From a virus, in the IMG/VR virus record IMGVR_UViG_3300011010_000241, positions 1-34,528 of that record: 34,528 nt of DNA; one strand, 5' to 3'. Position numbers and translations under genes: made by a program. Under the pieces are notes generated by a model that was not told the origin of the DNA, made no database searches, and saw only the letters and a list, made by a program, of their open reading frames with translations. Below are positions 2,370 to 27,442 of the stretch, piece by piece; the first letter of the stretch is position 1; every line of letters starts with the position of its first letter.

Positions 2370-2422
2370 GTGGAGGATGAAATAATATTACATTGTTTTA
2401 AAAGATGTTTATTGGAGGCCGC

Positions 2423-5400
2423 ATGGCAACAGAACAATCAACGATTGAAGTAAACGTACTCACCAAGGGCTTAACTGAAGCCACGGCGAGTGCGCAGAAA
2501 TTACATGATATAATGAAGGCAACTTCGAACATAGCCGCGAATATTCGTATTCCTACGGCTGTTCAGGCTGCCCAAGAACAAGTAGCTGCTACAAATACCA
2601 GAAGGTCTTCGCCAGTTATGGCCTCGCCAAAACCAAAAGGCGGAGGCAGCAGTAATGAGTACGGTACTGCAAGAGGTACTGTAGGCACAGGTGCCGAAGG
2701 CCGAGACTTCGCTAAACAAGCGCAAGGTCTAGGCGGATTAGTACACGTATATGCTACTTTTGCTGCTAACTTATTTGCCGTCTCAGCAGCATTTTCAGCA
2801 CTTTCAAAAGCAGCAGATACTACTAACATCATCAAAGGCTTAGATCAACTTGGCGCTCAAAGCGGTAGATCTCTTGGTGGAGTTGCCAAGGCTATGGTTG
2901 AAGTTACTGGTGGTGCACTAAGTTTAAGAGAAGCAATGACTTCTACAGCGCTTGCAAGTTCTGCAGGTATGACTAATGCTGCCATGATAAGAATGACCGA
3001 AGTAGCTAAAAAGGCTAGTTTGGCTCTTGGTAGAGATATGGGCGATTCTATGGATCGTCTTACAAAAGGTATTGCTAAAGTTCAGCCAGAACTATTAGAC
3101 GAACTTGGTATTATGGCCAGGGTTATTCCTTCTCAAGAAAAATATGCAAGAGAATTAGGTAAATCCGTTAGTGCTTTAACTGATTTTGAAAAGAAGCAGG
3201 CATTTGCCAATGCTGTTTTAGAAGAAGGTGAAAGAAAGTTTAGTTCAATTAATATTGATACTAACCCATATACACAACTTTCAGCAAGCTTAGCTAACGT
3301 AGCACAGACTGGCTTAGAGTTAGTAAATACCGTATTAGGCCCACTAGCTTCAAGTTTAGCTAAAAGCCCAACAGGATTAGGGCTAGCACTAACAGGTATT
3401 GCCGGTATATTATTAAAACAAGCCATTCCAGCACTAGGACAGTATAAGAAAAGTTTAGAAGATGTAAGATCAATGACTCTAGCTAAGGTAACTAAACTTT
3501 CAGAAGTAGTTGGTGAAAGTGGTACCTATGATGCTATTGTTGGTAAAAGAGCTAAAGATAAATTTTTACAAGAGTCCAAATATGCAGAGCAGACTTTTGA
3601 AGTAAAAAGAAAACTAGCAAGACAAGCTGCACAAATAGAAGAAGACGCTGCTGAAGCCTCTATTAAAAGAGGACAGGGAGTATTAGGACACGAAACAACT
3701 ACTAATAGAATTAGAGATAGACTGTATACAGATGCGGCAGTAGCTGGTGCAAAATATAATGTAAGTCAGATACAGGGTGCTTATGGTATGCGCGCAGCTT
3801 TTTCAGAACTAAGTGCTGAAATTACAAAACTTAGAGAAGGTACTGCAAAAATAGAAGTTGGTGGAAAACTAGTAGGAGATATTCCAAAAATTGGAGCTTT
3901 TAGAGCAGCTTTAATAGGAGTATCCGGAGCTGTAGCTATTATAGGTACAACAATAGGTACTTTAATTAATGCTTTTGCCCCATGGATTCTAGCAATTACA
4001 GCAGTTGTATCAGGTGTAGCCTTCTTAATAGACTACTTTAAAACAGCTACCACAGCAATAAATGCATCAGCAAAAGCAGCCGAAGGAGTAAATATAGCAG
4101 TTAAAACTATAGGCGACACTCTTGATGCTATAGAGAAAAAACCATTTTTAGAGCAAATTAGTAATGCATCGGTACAGGCTAAAGCTGCAGCTATAAATGA
4201 ACTTAGCTCTAGCATAGGATTACTAACAAAAAGAAATAAAGAAGCTAGCGAAAGACTAGCAAAAGGTGGAATTGCTGATACAATTGGAGATATGCGTCTA
4301 GGTAGTATGGCTTTTAATCCAAATAGTGGTATCGGTCTTTATAAGTTAGGCGATGCCTACTCAAGTAACCTAGCCAAAGAACTTGCAGACGGAACAGAAC
4401 AAGCATTAGTTGCAGCATCCAAGGTAATAGAAGGTAGCGCAGCAGAAGAAAACTATAGAGCTAGTATTAAAAATATATTAGGAATAAGCTATAGTAGTTC
4501 AGCAGATTTAGAAAAACAACTAAGCAAAATACCAAATGAATTAATTCAAAAATTACCTAAGTTACAAAAAGCTTTAGAGGACACTAATAAAGCTGTAAAC
4601 AATGCAGCATCTGCAGGTAAAGAACTTGACGACGCTTGGACCGCAGCTACAAAAACTTTTGATAATTTAATTACTAGTTTAGCTATAACTGATCCACTTG
4701 GTAAATTAGGTGACGAGACTATTAAAGTTGGTATAGCCATGACTAAGGCTTTTGAAGATCCTGCAAATAAATTAGCAGAATTAAGCAAGACTTCCAAAGA
4801 TATGTCTAGGCTAAGATTTATGTCTCCTGAAACTGCAAAAGACATGATGCTATTTGCAGGGCGTCTGGAAGAATCTGCCAAAAAAGTAGATAAACTAAAC
4901 GAAAAGTTAAAAACCTCCAGAGAGAACGAAAATAAGTTTTCCAAAGAAGTTGGAATGTTTGGAAATATTACAGACTCTTTAGGGTTAACTAATAATCCTG
5001 GCGAATTAAGAAAAGCACAGCAACAATCTAAAAATATTCAGTCGCAGATTAATGCTGAAGCTAATAAAGTAGAATATCAAGACTTATACTTAAAATCTCA
5101 AGACGAAGTATTCTCCAGAGGTGCAAAACTTGTAGAAGTTTCTATAAGTCAGTCATTTGCAAAAGCAAATATCGCCCTAGGCCAAACAGTATTAGCCAAC
5201 GCCGGAAATACCAAAGAGGGATTAAGAGCTCAAGCGGATTTAGCAAAACAGCAAATTGATGTTGAATCAGCCAATCTTAACGTAATGGTTGAATTAGCAA
5301 GAGCTACTAATGAACTAGCTAAAATTCAGGAAGAATTATTAATTGCAGAAAAACGTAAGCAATTAAACCCAAATGATGCTGACTTTAAGAAACAGTCCAG

Positions 5401-8400
5401 TAAGCTCACAGAGAGAGCCATTGTATTAGAAGCATCTAGAGAACAAAAAAGTTTTAAAGATACTACTAGAGATTTAAATAGTACAAATCCAATAGACAGA
5501 CAGGCTGCTCAAAGAAACTATGGGTTAGTATCCATTATAGAATCAACAAGAGCGCAGCAAGCTTTAAATGCAGCAAAAAAAGTAGGCATAGATATTGATA
5601 CAAAAGGCAAAGAAATACTACTTGATATTGATGCAATAGTACGCCGAAATGATTTAATAGCTAAAGGCTTAAGTTTAAAAGTTGCAGAACTTGGTATTAT
5701 TACTCAGAACTCTCAGTATGAAAGCGAAGCTGCTGTATTACAAAAACAGAATCTTGAACGCAGTATTACAATTCTTGGACAAGAAAAAGAACGATTACAA
5801 ATAATTGGTCAGATAAGAGATGCAGAAATGCGTGCTAAATCAGCTAATCCAGAAATAAGAGCCGCAGCTCAAACCAGTATAGCAAAGTTCAGACTTGACT
5901 TAGCTCAAAAAGAGCAGATGAATGAAAAAGATCTTCAAATATTAAGTTTAAAGAATATTCAAGAACAAAAAGTTGCAAGAATTGCGGAATTTAATTATGC
6001 AAAAGATTTTCAACTATTAAACAATACAATTAATAGCGAAAGTCTTTCAGCTATTCAAAATTTATCTTCTGGATATTTAGACTTTATCAATCAACAAAAG
6101 TTAACTATAGAGTTAAGCAACCTAAAACTTAATTATGATAAGCAGTCTAATGCAGAATTAGAAAGTCAATTAATTCTACAAGATCAGCTAAATAAATTAA
6201 GAAAAGATACAACCTCAAGTCCTGATAGCATATCCAACGCTGAAAGATCACTAGCAGAATCTAAAGCTAAGTCAGCCCAGTTAGACTTAAAGTATGCTTA
6301 TGAAATACGTAACCTTAATGCTGCAAATTTAAAAACAAGACTAGATGGTCAAGAATCTATACGTAAAGATATAGCAGATACCGCGTTAGCAGAAATAACT
6401 TCAGCTAATAAAGTATTAAGTATACGAATAGGTATGGAACAAAAGCTATTACAAGCTAAAGTTAGTTTAGGCTATGTATCTGAACAAACAGCAGCAAGAC
6501 AAACTGAAGAAGTATCTAAGAAGTTACTTGCAGTTGAATTAGCTAACCAAGCAGCAGAAAATGCTAAATTAGAGAAAGATAACTTAGAAGCAACAAAAAT
6601 AAGGGAAGAGTTATTAGCTGCAGCAAAAGATAAGATAGATAAAGATTATAAAGCTAGACTCATAGAGAGAACACAGCAAACTAAAGATGCAATTGATAGA
6701 ATAATGGCACAGCCAACAGCTGAACCTGGTGTATTTAATCCTGGAGCAGTATCTGCAGATGTTAAAGCCTCTGAAGCAGCTAAAGCGCTAGAAGCCGGAC
6801 GTGCAGATGTAGATTCACTAGCAGCTCTTAGACTAAAAGCAACTACAGAACTTGAAGCGTCTACAGCAAGAGAAAATAAAAAATCTGCTGATGCGTTTAA
6901 ACAAAAACTTAACGATCAAGGGGCTCTTATAGACGATAAGAAGCAAGAAATTGCTTTAAATAGAGAAATTCAAGATCAACAGGCTAAAATTGCACAGATA
7001 ACAAAAGATCAGTCCTTTTATACTACACAAGCTGAACAAGCCGCAAAAAGTCTTGCAGCAACTTTTGGAGAGTTCGGAAAAGCTTTAGGTGACGTAATTA
7101 ATAATCTAGCTAAAAGTTCTGCAAATATGGCAACATATGAGCAAGATAGAATAAAAGCACTTCAACAAATAAGAGCTGCCGAAGGTAATCCAGCAGAAAA
7201 AGCCCAAGCCACAGAAAATCTTGCAAAGCTAGATCAAAAGTACAGTTCACAGAGACTAGATGACCTAGCCTCAATAGCAGCGGCTTCAGCAAATATTTTT
7301 GAGAAGGATAGTAAAGGCTACAATAAAATGATGGCCATTGAAAAGATACTACACTTAATGAAGATTGCTGACATGGTAATGCAACAAGCCAGATTCATGA
7401 AAGACTGGTTTGTTAGAATGACCAGTACTAGAGCTGAAATAGCTTTAGCTACTACTAAAGCCGCTGTTGGCGCAGTACCTTCCGCAATAGGTACAGGAGG
7501 TAAACTACTAGACGTAGCAGGTAAGCTAGTTCCTGGTAATACGGATCCTGGATTAGGTAAAGTTGATTATGGACTATTCACTGGCGGAGGTATGAAACTG
7601 CCAAATGCTCTTGGTAACGGACCAAGCTTAACAGGTGGTTTATCAAGTGCTGCTGCTCCAGCAGCTGCAGCAGGTGAAGCAGGCGGTATCATGAGTATGC
7701 TTGGTTCTGCAGGCGCAGGTATTATGGCAGCAGCTCCATGGATAGCAGGCGGTATAGCTTTATTATCACTATTCGGAGGAAGTAGCAAGCCAAAAGGGCC
7801 AACTCCTGAAGAATTAGCTTCTGTTAGTGGTACTGGTATGCGTTATAACGCAGACGGTAAACTAGAAGCTACAGGTACTGGTGCCCTAGGTGATGCTAAA
7901 GCAGCCAATGAGGGTATTGCAAAAAGTATTGATTATTTAACTAAAATAAACTACGAAAACCTACAGTTTGATAAAAATAAAGCTTTAGTAGCCTTAGAAG
8001 CTATTAGAGATAATACTGCTAACTTTGTAAAAGCAGTTGGAGCAACTGGTAAAATAGGTGACATGACAGCAGGTGGAGTAGAGCTAAATAAGAAAAGCGG
8101 ATTCTTAGGATTTAGTTCAAGCTCAACTACCCTAGCTGCTAGTGGTGTACAGATAACTGGTACTATTGGTGAAATTGCTGATGGTCTTGGTGGAGCTGTT
8201 AAAAAGTTTGAAGATATTAGAAGAAGTAGTAGTTCTTGGTGGGGCTTAAGAAGTTCTACTACTGTAACTCGTACAGAAACAGAAGTATCTAAAGTTGCAC
8301 AAGACTTTATAAGAGGCACAGTAGGTAGTTTCCGTGAAGCAATTCAAGCTTCAGCATCAGCATTTGGTCAAGATGGTGGCTTACTAAAACCAATTATTGA

Positions 8401-10102
8401 TCAACTAGATATTAGCTTTACCGCTTATCAAACTGGTGAAACTAGTGCTGATTTTGCTAACAGAGTACAAGAGGAACTCGGAAATAAACTAGACACAGCA
8501 GTTAAAGCAGTATTCCCAGGAATAGAAAGCTTAGCAAGTAAGTTTCAAAACTTTGGGGAAACCTTATCTGAATTTGCAATGCGAGTTCAAGGTGATAGTG
8601 AGCAGATTAAATTTGCTTTCCAGTCTATTGGACAAGCTTATATAGATAATTCTGGTGGTACTCCTGGAGCTGCAATGGCTCAACGAGAAGCCGAACAAAC
8701 ACTAGTAAAAGCATTTGGTGGATCACAAGAACTATTTGCTGCTATTGATAAATACGGTAACAGTATGCTTACTGAAGCTGAGAGATTGGCTCCAGTACGA
8801 GATAATGTTAATAAGAAATTAATAGAGTTATTTCCAGCACTTCAGTCTGGTGGTAAATCTTTAATTACTACTAGACAAGAATTTGATAATCTTAGAAAAA
8901 CTCTTGATCCACTTAATCCTGCTACTGCAGATTTATGGGCATCAATGACTAGATTAGGTCCAGCATTTGCTTCAGTTACTGAAGAAGTTAAGATGTTAGC
9001 AGATGCAGAACTTAAAAAGGCACAACAAGATCAATTAAGTACTATACTGGCTCTTAAAGGTGATGACGTAAGTAAAGCAAAAGCTTTAACACTTACTAGA
9101 CAGCGTGAATTAGATGCAATGGATGCTTTATTAAAACCAAATCAACTATACATCTATGCTTTACAAGACGAAGCGGCTGCCAAAGATAAATTACAAAGTT
9201 CTTACGATAAAGTTAAAACAGCAATTACTGGTACTATTGATAGTTTGAAATCTCAAATTACGGTTTTACAAGATTACAAGAAGAACCTACAAATGGGTGA
9301 TAAAGGTAATCTAACACCACAAGAAGCTTATGCAGCTTCCAAAGGTCAACTAGAATCAGCTGCCGCATTAGCTCAACAAACACTTGGTGCTGATGCTTCT
9401 AAATCAGAAATTGCAGCAAGAGATAAAGCTGTTTCAAGTTTACCAAATTTAATAGATCAGTTCTTAAATCAGTCTAAAACATCTTATGCTAGTGGCGATC
9501 AATATCAAGCTGATTACTCTTGGGTAAATAGTTTACTTGATACTACTACTGAACAGTTAACATCTCAAGAAACAGATGCTCAAAAGCAACTAACTGCTTT
9601 AAATGATAGTGTTACTTATCTAACTACTATTGACGAAAATACTAAAACAACAGCAGTCTTAATGTCAGAATTCCTAGCTAATCAAACTAGTTATGAAACT
9701 GCATCAGCCAGTGCTATGAGCCTATTAACTCAAGAGTTAACAGGTATACTAGCAAACCTGCCTACAAAGGTAAAAGGATTTGCTATGGGCGGACTAGCTA
9801 ACCGTGGTGTGAACATGGTTGGAGAGAATGGACCAGAACTAGTAGATTTTGCCTCACCAGGTAGAGTTTATACTGCTGGACAAACTGCTGCATTTGGAGA
9901 TAATACTGCATTAGTTGCAGAACTAAAAGCACTACGAGATGAAATGTCTCAGTTACGTTCGGAACAAAAGGAACAAACTGGACATATTATTCAAAGTAAC
10001 TACGATGCTAACCAGAAAAATGCGCAAGCAGTTTCTAATGTTACAGAAAATGCTATTAAACAACAGACGTGGAAAGAACGCTCTCAAGTTGTAATAGCTT
10101 AA
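2423..10102 (+). CDS. Tail tape measure protein
   Basis: Sets tail length and fills the tube before DNA ejection. I place the start at ATG 2423 (2559 residues), behind GGAGG at 2414-2418 and opening MATEQSTIEV; the in-frame ATG 2405 has no ribosome site. Visible order: an Ala-rich alpha N-terminus; a hydrophobic segment at about 493-537 long enough for one or two membrane passes; long coiled-coil-like stretches rich in Lys, Glu, Gln and Ala (about 800-1650); a second hydrophobic Ala/Gly segment at about 1756-1788; and near the C-terminus (about 2451-2489) GFAMGGLANRG followed by VGENGPELVDF, a signature I know from many tape measure proteins. No lysozyme or peptidase motif was recognised. It has its own promoter and terminator. 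Size, location and the C-terminal motif make the call firm. Confidence 0.97.
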   Translation: MATEQSTIEVNVLTKGLTEATASAQKLHDIMKATSNIAANIRIPTAVQAAQEQVAATNTRRSSPVMASPKPKGGGSSNEYGTARGTVGTGAEGRDFAKQAQGLGGLVHVYATFAANLFAVSAAFSALSKAADTTNIIKGLDQLGAQSGRSLGGVAKAMVEVTGGALSLREAMTSTALASSAGMTNAAMIRMTEVAKKASLALGRDMGDSMDRLTKGIAKVQPELLDELGIMARVIPSQEKYARELGKSVSALTDFEKKQAFANAVLEEGERKFSSINIDTNPYTQLSASLANVAQTGLELVNTVLGPLASSLAKSPTGLGLALTGIAGILLKQAIPALGQYKKSLEDVRSMTLAKVTKLSEVVGESGTYDAIVGKRAKDKFLQESKYAEQTFEVKRKLARQAAQIEEDAAEASIKRGQGVLGHETTTNRIRDRLYTDAAVAGAKYNVSQIQGAYGMRAAFSELSAEITKLREGTAKIEVGGKLVGDIPKIGAFRAALIGVSGAVAIIGTTIGTLINAFAPWILAITAVVSGVAFLIDYFKTATTAINASAKAAEGVNIAVKTIGDTLDAIEKKPFLEQISNASVQAKAAAINELSSSIGLLTKRNKEASERLAKGGIADTIGDMRLGSMAFNPNSGIGLYKLGDAYSSNLAKELADGTEQALVAASKVIEGSAAEENYRASIKNILGISYSSSADLEKQLSKIPNELIQKLPKLQKALEDTNKAVNNAASAGKELDDAWTAATKTFDNLITSLAITDPLGKLGDETIKVGIAMTKAFEDPANKLAELSKTSKDMSRLRFMSPETAKDMMLFAGRLEESAKKVDKLNEKLKTSRENENKFSKEVGMFGNITDSLGLTNNPGELRKAQQQSKNIQSQINAEANKVEYQDLYLKSQDEVFSRGAKLVEVSISQSFAKANIALGQTVLANAGNTKEGLRAQADLAKQQIDVESANLNVMVELARATNELAKIQEELLIAEKRKQLNPNDADFKKQSSKLTERAIVLEASREQKSFKDTTRDLNSTNPIDRQAAQRNYGLVSIIESTRAQQALNAAKKVGIDIDTKGKEILLDIDAIVRRNDLIAKGLSLKVAELGIITQNSQYESEAAVLQKQNLERSITILGQEKERLQIIGQIRDAEMRAKSANPEIRAAAQTSIAKFRLDLAQKEQMNEKDLQILSLKNIQEQKVARIAEFNYAKDFQLLNNTINSESLSAIQNLSSGYLDFINQQKLTIELSNLKLNYDKQSNAELESQLILQDQLNKLRKDTTSSPDSISNAERSLAESKAKSAQLDLKYAYEIRNLNAANLKTRLDGQESIRKDIADTALAEITSANKVLSIRIGMEQKLLQAKVSLGYVSEQTAARQTEEVSKKLLAVELANQAAENAKLEKDNLEATKIREELLAAAKDKIDKDYKARLIERTQQTKDAIDRIMAQPTAEPGVFNPGAVSADVKASEAAKALEAGRADVDSLAALRLKATTELEASTARENKKSADAFKQKLNDQGALIDDKKQEIALNREIQDQQAKIAQITKDQSFYTTQAEQAAKSLAATFGEFGKALGDVINNLAKSSANMATYEQDRIKALQQIRAAEGNPAEKAQATENLAKLDQKYSSQRLDDLASIAAASANIFEKDSKGYNKMMAIEKILHLMKIADMVMQQARFMKDWFVRMTSTRAEIALATTKAAVGAVPSAIGTGGKLLDVAGKLVPGNTDPGLGKVDYGLFTGGGMKLPNALGNGPSLTGGLSSAAAPAAAAGEAGGIMSMLGSAGAGIMAAAPWIAGGIALLSLFGGSSKPKGPTPEELASVSGTGMRYNADGKLEATGTGALGDAKAANEGIAKSIDYLTKINYENLQFDKNKALVALEAIRDNTANFVKAVGATGKIGDMTAGGVELNKKSGFLGFSSSSTTLAASGVQITGTIGEIADGLGGAVKKFEDIRRSSSSWWGLRSSTTVTRTETEVSKVAQDFIRGTVGSFREAIQASASAFGQDGGLLKPIIDQLDISFTAYQTGETSADFANRVQEELGNKLDTAVKAVFPGIESLASKFQNFGETLSEFAMRVQGDSEQIKFAFQSIGQAYIDNSGGTPGAAMAQREAEQTLVKAFGGSQELFAAIDKYGNSMLTEAERLAPVRDNVNKKLIELFPALQSGGKSLITTRQEFDNLRKTLDPLNPATADLWASMTRLGPAFASVTEEVKMLADAELKKAQQDQLSTILALKGDDVSKAKALTLTRQRELDAMDALLKPNQLYIYALQDEAAAKDKLQSSYDKVKTAITGTIDSLKSQITVLQDYKKNLQMGDKGNLTPQEAYAASKGQLESAAALAQQTLGADASKSEIAARDKAVSSLPNLIDQFLNQSKTSYASGDQYQADYSWVNSLLDTTTEQLTSQETDAQKQLTALNDSVTYLTTIDENTKTTAVLMSEFLANQTSYETASASAMSLLTQELTGILANLPTKVKGFAMGGLANRGVNMVGENGPELVDFASPGRVYTAGQTAAFGDNTALVAELKALRDEMSQLRSEQKEQTGHIIQSNYDANQKNAQAVSNVTENAIKQQTWKERSQVVIA

Positions 10103-10208: not shown

Positions 10209-12131
10209 ATGGCAATAAATTATACTCAAGCCTGGCTTGAAGATCCTACAAGCATACGTGGAATATTAGTAGAAATAACGGTAAAAGACTTGCAAGGTAT
10301 ATATGGTACTGCAGGTAGTGAAAATGTTATATACTTGTCTAATATTGGTTATGTTTCAGGAGACTCTCAAACTAGCTATCTGCCATTTTTAACAGGCAGT
10401 TTACAAACAACAGAATCCATATCTCTGGATGGTTCACTAACAATGTCATTTGGTGACATTGCGATAGCAAATACAAATGGTGAAAGAGATGATTGGTTAG
10501 ATAATACTAAGTTTATTTGGACAAATAGACCTATTCAAGTGTATCTTGGTGATCCAAGATGGCAGTTAACGACACTTAACGATATTCATGATACTCCCAA
10601 TGGAGGCTTTCAAAAAGTATTCGACGGAATTGTATCAGATATAGATTCTAGCGGTAGAGATGTACTTAATATTAAAGTACGAGATAAACTACAAAGATTA
10701 AATGAGCCTTTAACAGACAATAAATTAGGTACTAACGGTACTTGGGGCCAAGGTCAAACAAATCAAGACTCTATACGTCCTCTAATTTTTGGTGAAGTAT
10801 TTAATATAAGTCCCATACTAGTAGACCCTAGCCAATTAGAGTATATGTTTCACGATACCAATGTTGGAACAACTATTAAGGCCACAACAGCAGGCACAAA
10901 TATAATAACTTGCACAAGTACTAAAGGTTTTACAGTTAATGCTACGGTAGTATTTACTGCTAGTGTAGTAGTATCTGGAACAGGCTTAACACCAATTACT
11001 GCGGTATTTGGTGGATTATCTGCAGGTACTACGTATTATATTAAAACTATTAATAGTGACACTACCTTTACAGTATCCACAACTAGTGGAGGTGCTGCCG
11101 TATCTTTAAGTACTGCGTCCGCAGTCACCACCGCAATAGTACAAGCCCAAGTAAAAGTATCTAGCGCAGAGTTAGTAATTGAAATAAGAGATAATGGAGT
11201 ACCGATCTATACAGATGCAAGCGTATACACACTTGCAGGAGTGCCGAGACCAAACGGTGCCGTTATTAATTATGATACTGGTAAGTTTAAACTAACTAAA
11301 CCACCAAGTGGAACTGTAACTGCTAGCATACAAGGTGCAAAAAGGTCTATAAATTTAAGTACTGGAAATTTAGTAGAAGGTACTTATGTTAATAATATAG
11401 CTAATATAATTGCATTAATAGTTACGCAGTACGGACTAGCATCTGTAAGACTATCAGGATCAGACATTGATTTAGCTAATTTTAGCACTTTTGCAGCCAA
11501 TAATACCCAACCTATAGGTATTGCTATTAGTGACAGAACTAATACACTTCAGGCATGTAAATTTATTGCAGATAGTGCCGATGCCAGTTTATTTATGAAC
11601 CGTACAGGACTACTACAGCTATTACAACTTGGTGTTCCTACTGCAGATACAAAAGTAAATATTACTGATAATGATATATTACACCACTCGTTACAAATAT
11701 CTAGTAAAACTAATGTTATAGCAGCTACTAAGGTAGCTTATTGCAAGAATTATACCCCACAAACAACTTTAGCATCAACACTGCCTGCTAATCATAACAG
11801 AATATTTCAAGAGCCCTGGCTTTCCATTACTGTTGTGGATTCAACTGTGCAATCTGATTACAAATTAGATTCTACACCACTGCAATTAGAAACTGCTCTA
11901 ATCAAAGGAATAGATTCCGCAGAGTTAGCCCAGTCTATTAATGATTATTGGAAAGTACCTAAAATTGTTTACAGTTTTACAGGTACTAGCAAACTATTAT
12001 CCCTTAAACTAGGTCAAGCTGTAAATATTACGCATAATAGATTTGGTTTAACTTCTGGTAAAGATGGTCAAGTTATATCTTTAAGCCCTAATTGGGTAAC
12101 CGGAACTATTTCTGTAGAGGTAATAATTTAA
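10209..12131 (+). CDS. Tail-tip hub-like minor tail protein with inserted beta module
   Basis: A 640-residue virion protein at the head of the tip and fibre operon. The layout (GILVEITVKDL, then SLDGSLTMSFGDIAIANTNG, RPIQVYLGD, a FDGIVSDIDS segment, RPLIFGE, IEIRDNGVPI and a C-terminus with LSLKLGQAVNITHNRFGL) matches a minor tail protein family I recall from long-tailed phages of proteobacteria; its place after the tape measure gene suggests a baseplate or tip hub role. At about residues 222-311 a beta module (TVNATVVF ... TTYYIKTINS ... STTSGGAAVSLS) splits the otherwise continuous family pattern between LEYMFHD and ELVIEIRDNG. The stop TAA shares one base with the next ATG, so translation is probably coupled. 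Function is inferred; family resemblance is from memory. Confidence 0.75.
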   Translation: MAINYTQAWLEDPTSIRGILVEITVKDLQGIYGTAGSENVIYLSNIGYVSGDSQTSYLPFLTGSLQTTESISLDGSLTMSFGDIAIANTNGERDDWLDNTKFIWTNRPIQVYLGDPRWQLTTLNDIHDTPNGGFQKVFDGIVSDIDSSGRDVLNIKVRDKLQRLNEPLTDNKLGTNGTWGQGQTNQDSIRPLIFGEVFNISPILVDPSQLEYMFHDTNVGTTIKATTAGTNIITCTSTKGFTVNATVVFTASVVVSGTGLTPITAVFGGLSAGTTYYIKTINSDTTFTVSTTSGGAAVSLSTASAVTTAIVQAQVKVSSAELVIEIRDNGVPIYTDASVYTLAGVPRPNGAVINYDTGKFKLTKPPSGTVTASIQGAKRSINLSTGNLVEGTYVNNIANIIALIVTQYGLASVRLSGSDIDLANFSTFAANNTQPIGIAISDRTNTLQACKFIADSADASLFMNRTGLLQLLQLGVPTADTKVNITDNDILHHSLQISSKTNVIAATKVAYCKNYTPQTTLASTLPANHNRIFQEPWLSITVVDSTVQSDYKLDSTPLQLETALIKGIDSAELAQSINDYWKVPKIVYSFTGTSKLLSLKLGQAVNITHNRFGLTSGKDGQVISLSPNWVTGTISVEVII

Positions 12132-15100
12132 TGTCAACTTTATTAAATGATAATGACTTAGCTCTACAAGGAGCACCTTATAGAGACAAGACCAGCTTAG
12201 TAAGTGTAACTGCAAGTGATACAAACTTTATTACTGTAAAAAACGGCGGAGCAACTACTCCTAGTAGTATAACTCTAACAGCTACACCTAATATTGTTTT
12301 TACTGCTGCTGCAACATTTAGTTGGAGCTATGCTTTAAATACTGCCCCTACTACTTTTAAGGCTTTTGATGGGGCACTAATACAAGGAACCACTACATTT
12401 TCAGGAGCTGGAACAAGTATTACTAGAGCAGGAACCTATACTAATTTAGTTCCTTTAACTACAAGCGGTACAGGAACCGGAGCAAAATTTGTAATTACAA
12501 AACTAAATACAAATAGCACATATGCGGGAAATATTAGTGTAACAGTGGTTAATCCTGGAGTAGGTTATAAAACTGGAGATACGATTACTATATCTGGCGG
12601 TTTTCTTGGTGGAGCGCTAACTACTAATAACTTAATTCTAACTATTGGTGGATCAGTTAGTACAGTAACTGATAGTAATACTAAGTCTATAACTGCAGCA
12701 ACAGTTAATTCCATAGTTGGAGAAACAAAAGCTACTTCTATACAATTTAAATGTGCTGTAAGTGAAAATTTTATTGAGACCGCATATGGTTACGCTTTAG
12801 TAACATATAGTCTTGAACAGGCTAATGCAGATTCTATAAGTGTTGAACTTACTAGAACCAATGCTGCAGTAAATACTAATACTGCAGGAATACCAAATAA
12901 TTTTAATGATACTGGAACCACAATTACAGTTTTAAGATCTGGTACACAACTAGCTTATAGTGCATCAGGTGGAAATTTAGTTGGAATATCTACACCTAAT
13001 AGTTTTAGTGTTGAAATTGTTACAGATACTAGTATAGATGCAAGTGTTCCAGACAGAACAGTAGGATCAACTTCTTTTACTTTAAACTCATGGAGTTTAG
13101 CCGGCATAACAGCACTAACAGCAGATTCAGCAACAGTAACATTTCTAGTTACTGTATACGATGCTTCTGGATTTAAAACTCAAGGCACTTATAAAACCCT
13201 TACTTTAACAAAAGTAGCAAGTGGAGTAGACGGAGAGCCTGCGCTGGTTTATTTTATAGATTTAAGTGCTCCAGTAATAACTAAAAGTACAGCTAGTAAA
13301 TTTATAACTGGTGTACATGAACAGATAAAAGTATATGGCAAAAAGACAGTAGGTAGTGGTACTTATGTTACATATGGATTTTTAACAGTAACAGGTGATC
13401 TAGAAACAGAAGCTACTACAGCTTTTGCAGCTTCTGTTAATGGATATACTACAAATATAGCTAATACTTCACAAAATGAACTATATACAATTAAATTATA
13501 TGATAGGGCAGATAGAACCAATGCACAAGCAATATTACTAGACACTCAAAAAGTACCTGTAGTATTTAATGGATCTAATGCTATCACTGCTACAATTAGT
13601 AATGATTCAGCACCAGTTTCTGTAAACTTTTCAGGTACTGTGTTATCTGGAGGATATATTGGAACGGGTACACCAATACGAGTATATGAAGGGGCAGAAG
13701 AATTAACTTATAATACTGTAGGCACTACTAGAGGGACCTATACTGTAACTGCGCAGTCTTCAGGAGTTATTCCTGGTACTATAAGTAGAGTTACTGGTGG
13801 ATTATATGCCATAACAGGAAATGTATCCTCTTTAGCTGTAGATCAGGCAACTATTACGTTTAATATAACTGGTACAAGTAAAACCGGTGCAGCTTTTAGT
13901 ATTTCTAAAATACAAAGTATTTATAAATCATATCCAGGCTCAGACTCTACATTTAACTACTTAGATTTATCAACACGTGTAATAACTAAAAATGCGGATA
14001 AAGCTACGACAGATGGCGCACATAGTACAGTAGTAGTTACTGGTAAACAGACAGTAGGCAACGCAACACCAACTATTACAGGATTTGTAACATTTAGTGC
14101 AACTTTGATTGTACTAAATGTAAATTCTAACTCAATATTTTTAAGTGGTACTAGTACTCTAACAGTTAATGCTTCCGTGATATTTTCTGGTATAGGATTA
14201 CCAGCGCAAATAACAGTTGGTAATACGTATTATGTTAAATCAATAAATAGCACAGATAAATCAATTACATTATCTACTACACTTGGTGGAGCAACTTTAA
14301 ACTTAACTAATACAGGTAACTTAACAACAGCTTATATACAATCAGAAGCAAGTTTAGCTACTGCTAATAGTATAATAGGTACAATACCTAATGACGCAGG
14401 GGCCTACTCATACTCAGCCAGACTGTATAATACAGCTAACAAAACTCTTCAATTAGATTATGAAGAATTACCTATTGTATTTAAGGGATCTAATTCAATA
14501 GTAATGAATATTACTAATGATTCTGCACAAATATCTTGTAATTATCTAGGAGTACCTAACAGTGGCGGGTATGCTAATACAGGTAGTATAATACAAGTAT
14601 TTGATGGAGCAAATGAATTAGTATACAATGGAGTAGGTACTTCAGATGGTACATACACAGTTACAGCAACTGGAATAAGTATTACACCAGGTACCATAGT
14701 AGCTAGCGGTGTATCAGCATCTGCACAAATAGCCAGCAATATAACTAATGATTTAGCTAGTATCACTTTTACAGTTACTGGTAAATCCCTGAGTGGTGGC
14801 AATATTAGTATATCTAAAATTCAAACTATAACTAAGCAAATAAACGGTAAAAACGGAGATAATGGTACAACATTTAAGACTGCTATAATTCAAGCCTCTG
14901 GCTGGAGCAATAGTAGTACACCTCCAGCATTAACAGGAACTTTTAACTATAATTGGTCTACAGGAGTTCTTACACCAGGTACAGGAATGTCTACTATATA
15001 TCCACCAGGATATTATGCTGATGCTCCTGCAGCCACTGGAAATGGGCAAACTTTACATAGTGTAACAGTTACTATATCGGCACCTAGTACTGATACTGTT

Positions 15101-15616
15101 ACAAATGATATTCCGTGGGCTACAGGAAAAACTAATAGAATCGGATATAGGGTAGATGGTAGTATAGGTTCAGTAGGAGACTCCGCTAGAACAGCTTATA
15201 TTGTGACTACTTCTCCAGTTCCGCCTAGTACTCCTACAGCTGGCTCAGGAGATGTAGTACCAACTTCAGCCGATGGTACCTGGTCTTTTAATGCTACCAG
15301 TGTATTAAGTAGTGGTCAATTTATGTATCAATGTGATGGTACATATAAACCATTACCTGCTCCTGGAGTAACTACTTGGAGAGCACCTTATTTAAGTAAC
15401 TTAAAAGTAGGTAATCTATCAGCACTCAGTGCTGATCTTGGTTATATTACTGCAGGAGCTTTAAATATTGGTAGTGGAAAATTTACTGTAGATAATAGTG
15501 GTAATGTAAAGATTAAAGGTCTAGGCACTGCTAGAATGGAGATTTCCAACGATAATATAAAAGTTTTTGACACTTCAGGAGCTTTAAGAGTTCAACTAGG
15601 GAATCTTGATACGTAA
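12131..15616 (+). CDS. Central tail fibre / tip attachment protein (J-like C-terminus)
   Basis: 1161 residues from ATG 12131, which overlaps the preceding TAA by one base; GAGG at 12117-12120 is the ribosome site. A TTG further upstream (12092) opens the same frame but lies inside the previous gene. The chain is almost wholly beta, Thr/Ser/Gly-rich: a module with YKTGDTITISG at about 145-180, then Ig-like domains, with two tandem copies of one multi-domain block (about 373-604 and 607-913) each holding GSN ... ISNDSAPVS / ITNDSAQIS and a SISKIQ ending. The last 70 residues (LSALSADLGYITAGAL, FTVDNSGNVKIKG, IKVFDTSGALRVQLG) match the end of J-like central fibres. Probably extends from the hub and contacts the host receptor. 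The hub and fibre parts of a J protein may be split here between two genes. Confidence 0.75.
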   Translation: MSTLLNDNDLALQGAPYRDKTSLVSVTASDTNFITVKNGGATTPSSITLTATPNIVFTAAATFSWSYALNTAPTTFKAFDGALIQGTTTFSGAGTSITRAGTYTNLVPLTTSGTGTGAKFVITKLNTNSTYAGNISVTVVNPGVGYKTGDTITISGGFLGGALTTNNLILTIGGSVSTVTDSNTKSITAATVNSIVGETKATSIQFKCAVSENFIETAYGYALVTYSLEQANADSISVELTRTNAAVNTNTAGIPNNFNDTGTTITVLRSGTQLAYSASGGNLVGISTPNSFSVEIVTDTSIDASVPDRTVGSTSFTLNSWSLAGITALTADSATVTFLVTVYDASGFKTQGTYKTLTLTKVASGVDGEPALVYFIDLSAPVITKSTASKFITGVHEQIKVYGKKTVGSGTYVTYGFLTVTGDLETEATTAFAASVNGYTTNIANTSQNELYTIKLYDRADRTNAQAILLDTQKVPVVFNGSNAITATISNDSAPVSVNFSGTVLSGGYIGTGTPIRVYEGAEELTYNTVGTTRGTYTVTAQSSGVIPGTISRVTGGLYAITGNVSSLAVDQATITFNITGTSKTGAAFSISKIQSIYKSYPGSDSTFNYLDLSTRVITKNADKATTDGAHSTVVVTGKQTVGNATPTITGFVTFSATLIVLNVNSNSIFLSGTSTLTVNASVIFSGIGLPAQITVGNTYYVKSINSTDKSITLSTTLGGATLNLTNTGNLTTAYIQSEASLATANSIIGTIPNDAGAYSYSARLYNTANKTLQLDYEELPIVFKGSNSIVMNITNDSAQISCNYLGVPNSGGYANTGSIIQVFDGANELVYNGVGTSDGTYTVTATGISITPGTIVASGVSASAQIASNITNDLASITFTVTGKSLSGGNISISKIQTITKQINGKNGDNGTTFKTAIIQASGWSNSSTPPALTGTFNYNWSTGVLTPGTGMSTIYPPGYYADAPAATGNGQTLHSVTVTISAPSTDTVTNDIPWATGKTNRIGYRVDGSIGSVGDSARTAYIVTTSPVPPSTPTAGSGDVVPTSADGTWSFNATSVLSSGQFMYQCDGTYKPLPAPGVTTWRAPYLSNLKVGNLSALSADLGYITAGALNIGSGKFTVDNSGNVKIKGLGTARMEISNDNIKVFDTSGALRVQLGNLDT
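13250..14866 (+). repeat. Tandem duplication inside central fibre gene
   Basis: Two protein-level copies: 13250-13942 and 13952-14866. Matching landmarks in order are FIDLSAPVITK / YLDLSTRVITK, YGKKTVGSG / TGKQTVGNA, KLYDRADRT / RLYNTANKT, VPVVFNGSNAI / LPIVFKGSNSI, and FSISKIQSI / ISISKIQTI. Copy 2 is longer by about 75 residues because of a beta module at about 14092-14348. Confidence 0.85.
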
Positions 15617-15629
15617 TTAAAGGAATAGT

Positions 15630-17375
15630 ATGGCGTATGGATTAGCATTTTTTAAAGGTAGTACTACAGGGTTAGACGATTGGATAGCATCTCAAAATGC
15701 CGTTAACCCTTCCCTAGCAACTCAAAATACTAATAATCAAATTGCGGATAATACAGGAATATCTGCAACTAGAGCGCAAGTAGTAAATGCTTTCCAATCC
15801 AGTACTATTACTCCACTATTGCCCCTTAATTCAGAAATACGAGGCTGGATGATTAGTGGTTTAAGTACGTTTACTACATACTACACTGATCTATATAATA
15901 ATAACACTACCCACCGTGATAAAGTTATCGCAGATAGAGCATTTCAAACAACAATTATTTCTCCATTAACCTTAAAACAAGAAGCTAATCAAAATGGAAC
16001 ACCATCACAGTCTACGCAAGATACATCGGGAAGAAATAAAACCACATTCTTATTAGGAATAGATAATGGTACTATAACTGAAGATGTTACTGGAAATACA
16101 GCAATTCTGTGTGTAAACCCATTACCTAGAGACGAAGCTTTTTATGCAATTTTTCCTAGAACTAAATATCTTGGTACAGTAGCTTATAACGGAACTACTT
16201 CATATACTCAAATATGGGGTGGTGACTTTATAATTCCTAAAAATACCAACTGGTGTGCGGAAGCCTGGATTTATCCGGCTAGATTTGGCGGAGGTATTAT
16301 AGGCTCAGGAGATTACGGATCCGGATCATGGCAAGTAGTACAAAACCCTACTAGTGGGATCATACAGTTAATTGCAGAAACCATTACCGAAACTACTAGA
16401 ACATTTGTTACACATTACTGGTCTGGATACTCTCTTCGAGTTAATGGAACATTTCCACCAACAGGAATGGTTGTAGGTACTAAAATTACTCCTCCAGCAG
16501 CTTATGGAGCAGTTGGCGATATGGTTGTAACTTCTTTAGATTATGGAAATCAAATTATAAATGTGACTCCTCGCTTTATGGGAGGAGACCTAGATGAAGA
16601 CGGTAATCCTAATGGATTTAAAGCAACATATGTTAGTACTTATGATGATGATGGCAATGTTCTTTCAACTACCTATCCAACAGAATTTAATTTCACATAT
16701 GTAACTGAACAAGCCTCAACTAGTTTTACAGACTCAGGAACTACCACTGCACCTGTATATACATGGACTCATGTTGCCGTTAGTTTAACTGGTACTACAT
16801 TACGATTATTTATAGATGGAACAGAGAGAGGTACAAGAACTATCTCTCCTACTATATTTAAACCAAATTATATAGATCAATCGTATTATTTGGGAGTACA
16901 TGAAAGAAGTACTTCAGCCCTTTATTTTCAAGGATATATCTCTAGCCCAAGACTAGTAAATGGAAAATCTATTTATACAAGTAATTTTACACCTAGTACT
17001 ACAGCGCCAAGAGCTAGTAGAGCAAGTGTAATAGCTGCCTTCTCTAAAAATTTATCTGGACCAGTAGAGCCATCAGAACGCGATATTCAATATTGGATGT
17101 TTAAAGGTTTTGATGCTAATAGTACTCTACAATTCAGTACTACTGATATAACTTGGAATCAAGTAGATAATTTTTATAAATTAGCAAATACTAACGTATC
17201 AAAAACTTATGCCTCATGTGTAAACAAAGAAATGTTAGTTACTCAAATATTAGTTGGTACTCCAGATTTTAATAAACCTTATTATGCAAATACAATAACC
17301 ACCACTAGTTCTAGTGGTTCTGTAAACTTAACAGGTGCAAATGTGGATGCCTATATAACGGTAATGATGCGATGA
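15630..17375 (+). CDS. LamG-domain tail protein with duplicated flanking segments
   Basis: 581 residues, ATG preceded by AGGAA at 15621-15625. The middle (about 178-457) is a concanavalin/LamG-type beta sandwich: AYNGTTSYTQIWGGDFIIP, AEAWIYPARF, then YTWTHVAVSLTGTTLRLFID, and YLGVHERSTSALYFQGYISS before RLVNGKSIY. A polar Gly/Asp-rich insertion (about 262-350, including DLDEDGNPNGF) separates the early and late strands. An N-terminal segment (about 44-110: SATRAQVVNAF, EIRGWMISG) recurs in diverged form after the LamG domain (about 461-544: ASRASVIAAF, DIQYWMFKG). LamG_3-like domains in phage appendages often bind glycans, so a surface-binding role is likely but inferred. Its TGA overlaps the next ATG (ATGA). 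Confidence 0.75.
   Translation: MAYGLAFFKGSTTGLDDWIASQNAVNPSLATQNTNNQIADNTGISATRAQVVNAFQSSTITPLLPLNSEIRGWMISGLSTFTTYYTDLYNNNTTHRDKVIADRAFQTTIISPLTLKQEANQNGTPSQSTQDTSGRNKTTFLLGIDNGTITEDVTGNTAILCVNPLPRDEAFYAIFPRTKYLGTVAYNGTTSYTQIWGGDFIIPKNTNWCAEAWIYPARFGGGIIGSGDYGSGSWQVVQNPTSGIIQLIAETITETTRTFVTHYWSGYSLRVNGTFPPTGMVVGTKITPPAAYGAVGDMVVTSLDYGNQIINVTPRFMGGDLDEDGNPNGFKATYVSTYDDDGNVLSTTYPTEFNFTYVTEQASTSFTDSGTTTAPVYTWTHVAVSLTGTTLRLFIDGTERGTRTISPTIFKPNYIDQSYYLGVHERSTSALYFQGYISSPRLVNGKSIYTSNFTPSTTAPRASRASVIAAFSKNLSGPVEPSERDIQYWMFKGFDANSTLQFSTTDITWNQVDNFYKLANTNVSKTYASCVNKEMLVTQILVGTPDFNKPYYANTITTTSSSGSVNLTGANVDAYITVMMR

Positions 17376-20074: not shown

Positions 20075-27442
<7,368 letters not shown>

Follow-up and report, generated by a model that had tools for sequence, protein, structure and literature searches.

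Small beta domains are known to decorate phage structural proteins. Promiscuous Ig-like domains on such proteins go back to Fraser et al. (2006, as cited in PMC10684548 and PMC10721106), and weak carbohydrate binding has been proposed for phage Ig-like domains (PMC10721106). At the tail tip, the lambda hub protein gpJ carries an Ig-like domain, FNIII-A, within its HDII-insertion domain, which is the same domain that accommodates the plug domain of T5 pb3 (PMC10721106). Shuffled domains are frequent among receptor-binding and baseplate proteins (PMC10684548, 2023).

Here we analysed a virus record of 34,528 bases (the window; its own phage is denoted W and the loci fetched for comparison carry L-numbers), in which a beta-strand module is inserted into both the tail hub and the neighbouring central fibre. 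Like the promiscuous Ig-like domains, it is a small beta domain at the surface of many unrelated structural proteins, varies in presence among close relatives and probably has an accessory role. In contrast to them, it lacks significant Pfam hits to Ig or FN3 families in the 55 members searched (the best, Ig_7 in a single member, has E 0.095), and its leading PDB fold matches are other than Ig/FN3, pointing weakly to ubiquitin E1 and endosialidase-like structures. For these two reasons we regard the module as working like Ig-like domains without classing it as Ig-like. With gpJ FNIII-A and the pb3 plug it shares insertion into a tail-tip hub whose scaffold has the same overall fold, but it belongs to a different domain family and may or may not use the equivalent loop. 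The evolutionary phenomenon matches the domain-level mosaicism described for phage proteins, shown most strongly by those of the baseplate and of receptor binding (PMC10684548); the domains there are known ECOD domains, whereas this module has no named Pfam family.

Tail genes and their inserts

The hub gene (10209–12131; 640 aa) lies 3' of a long tape-measure-like ORF (2405–10102, 2565 aa; no match in Pfam) and 5' of the central fibre gene (12131–15616; 1161 aa from its ATG, with a TTG at 12092 as a possible start). Both genes and the features within them are on the plus strand, and the genes overlap by one base, the fibre ATG at 12131 starting on the final base of the hub stop codon. The hub product matches phrog_8917 (E 2.5e-45), and its AlphaFold2 model (pLDDT 87) has the T5 tail tip as best PDB match in Foldseek (7zhj_b, E 7.5e-19, TM(query) 0.57) and also matches lambda gpJ. 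From these matches, the gene is predicted to encode a T5 pb3-like baseplate hub or tail-tip protein. An NCBIfam search of the hub and fibre proteins returned no named family.

The hub copy of the module occupies about 10866–11153, between LEYMFHD and ELVIEIRDNG (module HMM E 1e-28). The fibre copy is located in the second of two related repeats. Repeat A1 (13247–13582; A-domain HMM E 4e-57) is module-free, GFLTVTGD continuing directly as LETEATTAF (13376). In repeat A2 (13952–14497), GFVTFSA (14081) is followed by 81 residues, TLIVLNV...TTAYIQS (14102–14344), before EASLATANS, and the A-domain HMM matches on either side of the module (residues 621–689, E 8e-18; 715–802, E 6e-14). The contrast noted in the preliminary description between a first copy with no insert and a second with about 80 extra residues was therefore confirmed. 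With the insert removed, A1 and A2 are 41% identical. The motif order described earlier for the two inserts (TVNA-x-V-x-F, YY-x-K-x-INS, STT-x-GGA, TTA-x-x-Q) was likewise recovered when hub and fibre inserts were aligned.

Near its N-terminus, the fibre also carries an insert of a second mobile type (GVGYKTGD, or GGSGY-x-x-GD, module; 12428–12655). This insert is absent in L006 and present as two tandem copies in L003 (fibre ORF at 9911), and its profile matches 62 ORFs in 55 fetched loci.

Filled and empty sites across phages

We scored 63 hub homologues for module presence by site. Site 1 lies between LEYMF-x-D and VIEIRDNG and site 2 follows NGVPIYTD-x-x-VYG; the module is found at site 1, at site 2, at both or at neither, in one to three copies. 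Site 1, an insertion hot spot like site 2, is filled in L001–L006 and others and empty in L007–L009 and others. At the two loops, copies occur singly or in numbers of up to three (L025, L043, L107 and L119). Hub L125 counts as 'absent' on the tree, but its contig ends there and the start of the module is present. On the hub-core tree, about 5–6 changes fall on site 1 and three on site 2. Presence and absence among close homologues is illustrated by the sister hubs L025 and L107: a single clean, in-frame indel of net 288 nt separates them at site 1, and the DNA on either side is about 88% identical. Further copies at different loop positions, which the preliminary description had proposed to look for, thus exist at two hub loops and elsewhere.

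Among the fibres examined, the module is confined to the clade with two A repeats. The two-repeat orthologues (L001, L002, L005, L016 and L017) carry it at one and the same position of A2, with A1 always free of it, and the single-repeat fibres (L006, L103, L104, L111, L118, L123, L132, L184, L185 and L186) all lack it.

Family-wide, a module profile detected about 260 copies, spread over 140 ORFs, in the first ~90 loci. In a larger set the distinct copies numbered at least 146; the 82 ORFs that contain them include hubs, fibres and other large phage ORFs. The module is about 75–95 residues long. Once the modules were masked, the ORFs fell into at least seven host families, placing the module in several non-homologous phage proteins. 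The window's own copies gave no significant match in Pfam, PHROGs or PDB sequence searches, but other members of the family match several distinct PHROG families, including 4711, 9370 (tail fibre) and 7765 (best E 2e-7). Two cultured phages carry the module, Microbacterium phage Atraxi (gp43) and Synechococcus phage Sf-CH11, with E-values that derive from a tiny database; despite these and many uncultured phage proteins, the module is apparently without a Pfam name. A scan of genome contigs found no relative. The comparisons revealed neither a recombination junction signature nor any recent transfer between unrelated genes, the best between-family pair sharing 62% amino-acid identity. Most likely, the module falls within the established class of promiscuous phage beta domains, as a member still without a name. 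One ORF of 1286 residues (L046:4624–8481) consists largely of ~14 module copies, in which longer and shorter forms alternate and are up to 70% alike.

Because the same two hub loops take this module, other insert types and combinations of them, the hub may have defined 'sockets' for interchangeable surface domains, with the widespread, unnamed and perhaps FCCH-like family acting as a domain cassette that prefers certain docking loops; we offer this reading tentatively, at a little under an even chance.

Inserts of other kinds, their type judged by eye, occupy the same hub hot spots: site 2 carries an unrelated-looking insert in L111 and one of GGSGY type in L117, another beta insert precedes site 1 in L142 and L144, and in L123 the site-1 module is followed by a long extra lectin-like stretch.

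Homology, gain and relatedness of the two copies

The tail proteins in the window are Thr/Ser-rich, and the likeness of the inserts might in principle reflect no more than the shared composition of such beta domains. The hub and fibre inserts, however, are 41% identical over 85 columns (BLASTP, E 3e-13), and their Smith-Waterman score of 138 lies far above 2000 shuffles (mean 43, sd 7, maximum 75) and above the highest value, 67, of 182 comparisons in which other stretches of the tail proteins were used. Specific F, YY-x-K, T-x-S and GG positions are moreover conserved family-wide, which leaves an explanation by composition with almost no credibility. The inserts are homologous; chance resemblance was ruled out by the Smith-Waterman controls and the BLASTP E-value. 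That copy 1 and the hub relatives have instead lost an ancestral module deserves somewhat more weight, since the change counts on the hub tree do not discriminate gain from loss, and the module may have been lost from hub site 1 in L118, L122 and L107. In the fibre, by contrast, this would require many independent losses, as about ten distinct A units outside A2 are all module-free, and we consider it quite improbable. Because ~10 distinct single-repeat relatives and every A1 lack the module, the sequence comparison supports its addition in A2, a gain being far simpler than repeated loss. The block therefore appears, as the preliminary description held, to be a separable module that was added: it is missing from single-repeat fibres and A1, and hub relatives show clean empty sites. 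The accompanying view of A1 and A2 as a natural before/after pair within one gene stood only in part. An empty A1 and a filled A2 do exist, but when the longest branches were left out of the A-unit tree, A1 grouped with the single repeats and A2 fell outside (82/85); with these branches included, no clear order emerged and A1 plus A2 as one clade was not rejected (p-AU 0.28). The pair is imperfect because these trees do not show that repeat 2 arose within the window lineage by duplication of repeat 1, and the hub pair L025/L107 is the better before/after comparison.

The proposal that a domain moved or was copied between the neighbouring hub and fibre genes fared less well. A direct copy from hub to fibre (or the reverse) in the ancestor of the clade would suit two adjacent genes of the same clade, in which the W fibre module has its best non-fibre BLAST matches in the L005 and W hub modules; hubs are also frequent in the top matches of the fibre profile, and hub and fibre modules as one clade were not rejected (p-AU 0.71). 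Against this, the hub-module profile ranks the fibre modules 64–86 of 136, so that hub modules are nearer to those in unrelated ORFs of other phages than to the one in the fibre, and in the fibre-profile search the W-clade hubs rank 1, 7, 8, 10, 13 and 80, interspersed with unrelated ORFs and with other phages' hubs. A module tree had too few columns to resolve hub-fibre copying. The 12-mer ACAGTTAATGCT, previously presented as the common start of both modules, does occur in each of them and exactly twice in the window (10932–10943 and 14162–14173; 0.01 expected), but ~20 residues inside the module rather than at its start. It is not conserved among orthologues, the corresponding codons differing by 1–7 bases in the hub and 0–3 in the fibre, and because the same codons vary in this way, its identity is no inherited signature of copying. 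At the DNA level, the likeness of the two modules is significant only across one 32-nt stretch, at the YYxK core. Hub and fibre modules within a phage are 34–43% identical, less than orthologous modules between phages (hub 68–90%, fibre 47–84%); any copying between the two genes would therefore be old, predating the clade, and without concerted evolution. Judged from these identities, the divergence of hub and fibre modules is older than the W/L001 split. Independent recruitment from a common pool fits the data equally well or better, and we regard a direct copy as unlikely.

Predicted fold and putative role

In an AlphaFold2 model of A2 with its module, the module is mostly predicted at pLDDT about 88–95 with about six strands, the first of which is continuous with a host strand (48–61), while confidence for the surrounding A2 domain is only modest (pLDDT about 42–76). 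Strands also cross both module boundaries in the hub model. The module is thus modelled as a compact unit that continues the strands of its host. Foldseek searches with A2 plus module gave phi92 endosialidase as a weak PDB match (E 0.009), and, among viral structures, fibres of phages together with uncharacterised phage proteins (E 1e-6 at best). Many ubiquitin E1 (UBA1) structures recur among the matches, with probability up to 0.96 but E-values of 0.06 and worse (0.06–0.4) and the aligned region not displayed. These matches suggest, but do not establish, an FCCH-like small barrel; E1_FCCH (PF16190) gave no match among 55 members at E<1. The FCCH domain of E1 is itself inserted. Nothing relevant on FCCH was found in the phage literature.

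From these comparisons we propose that the module is a self-folding small beta-strand unit of a family widespread in phage structural proteins, a mobile-module reading that we hold to be very likely. On the models, it would sit in frame at a surface beta-hairpin tip, where the host strand leads into the first strand of the module and resumes after its last. Gain and loss would be restricted to a few preferred positions, namely two neighbouring hub loops and one loop of fibre repeat A2, and the route was probably recombination between phage genomes. In the window lineage, one copy each in hub and fibre would have been passed down vertically from before W and L001 separated. The putative role is surface decoration, with weak adhesion to cell-surface glycans or stiffening of the tail tip, leaving the tail-channel scaffold untouched; adhesion itself we put at just short of evens. 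Taken as a whole, this explanation is in our view highly probable. With natural pairs of empty and filled hubs on a known fold, the function of a promiscuous surface domain becomes directly testable by deletion.

Two further ORFs of the window were noted. Directly 3' of the fibre gene, ORF 15630–17375 contains a Laminin_G_3/concanavalin-like lectin domain (E 9e-11) and is likely, from this match, to be glycan-binding. ORF 20075–27442 (2455 aa) is rich in collagen-like triple-helix repeats, with 7 stretches matching Pfam Collagen (E 3e-62).
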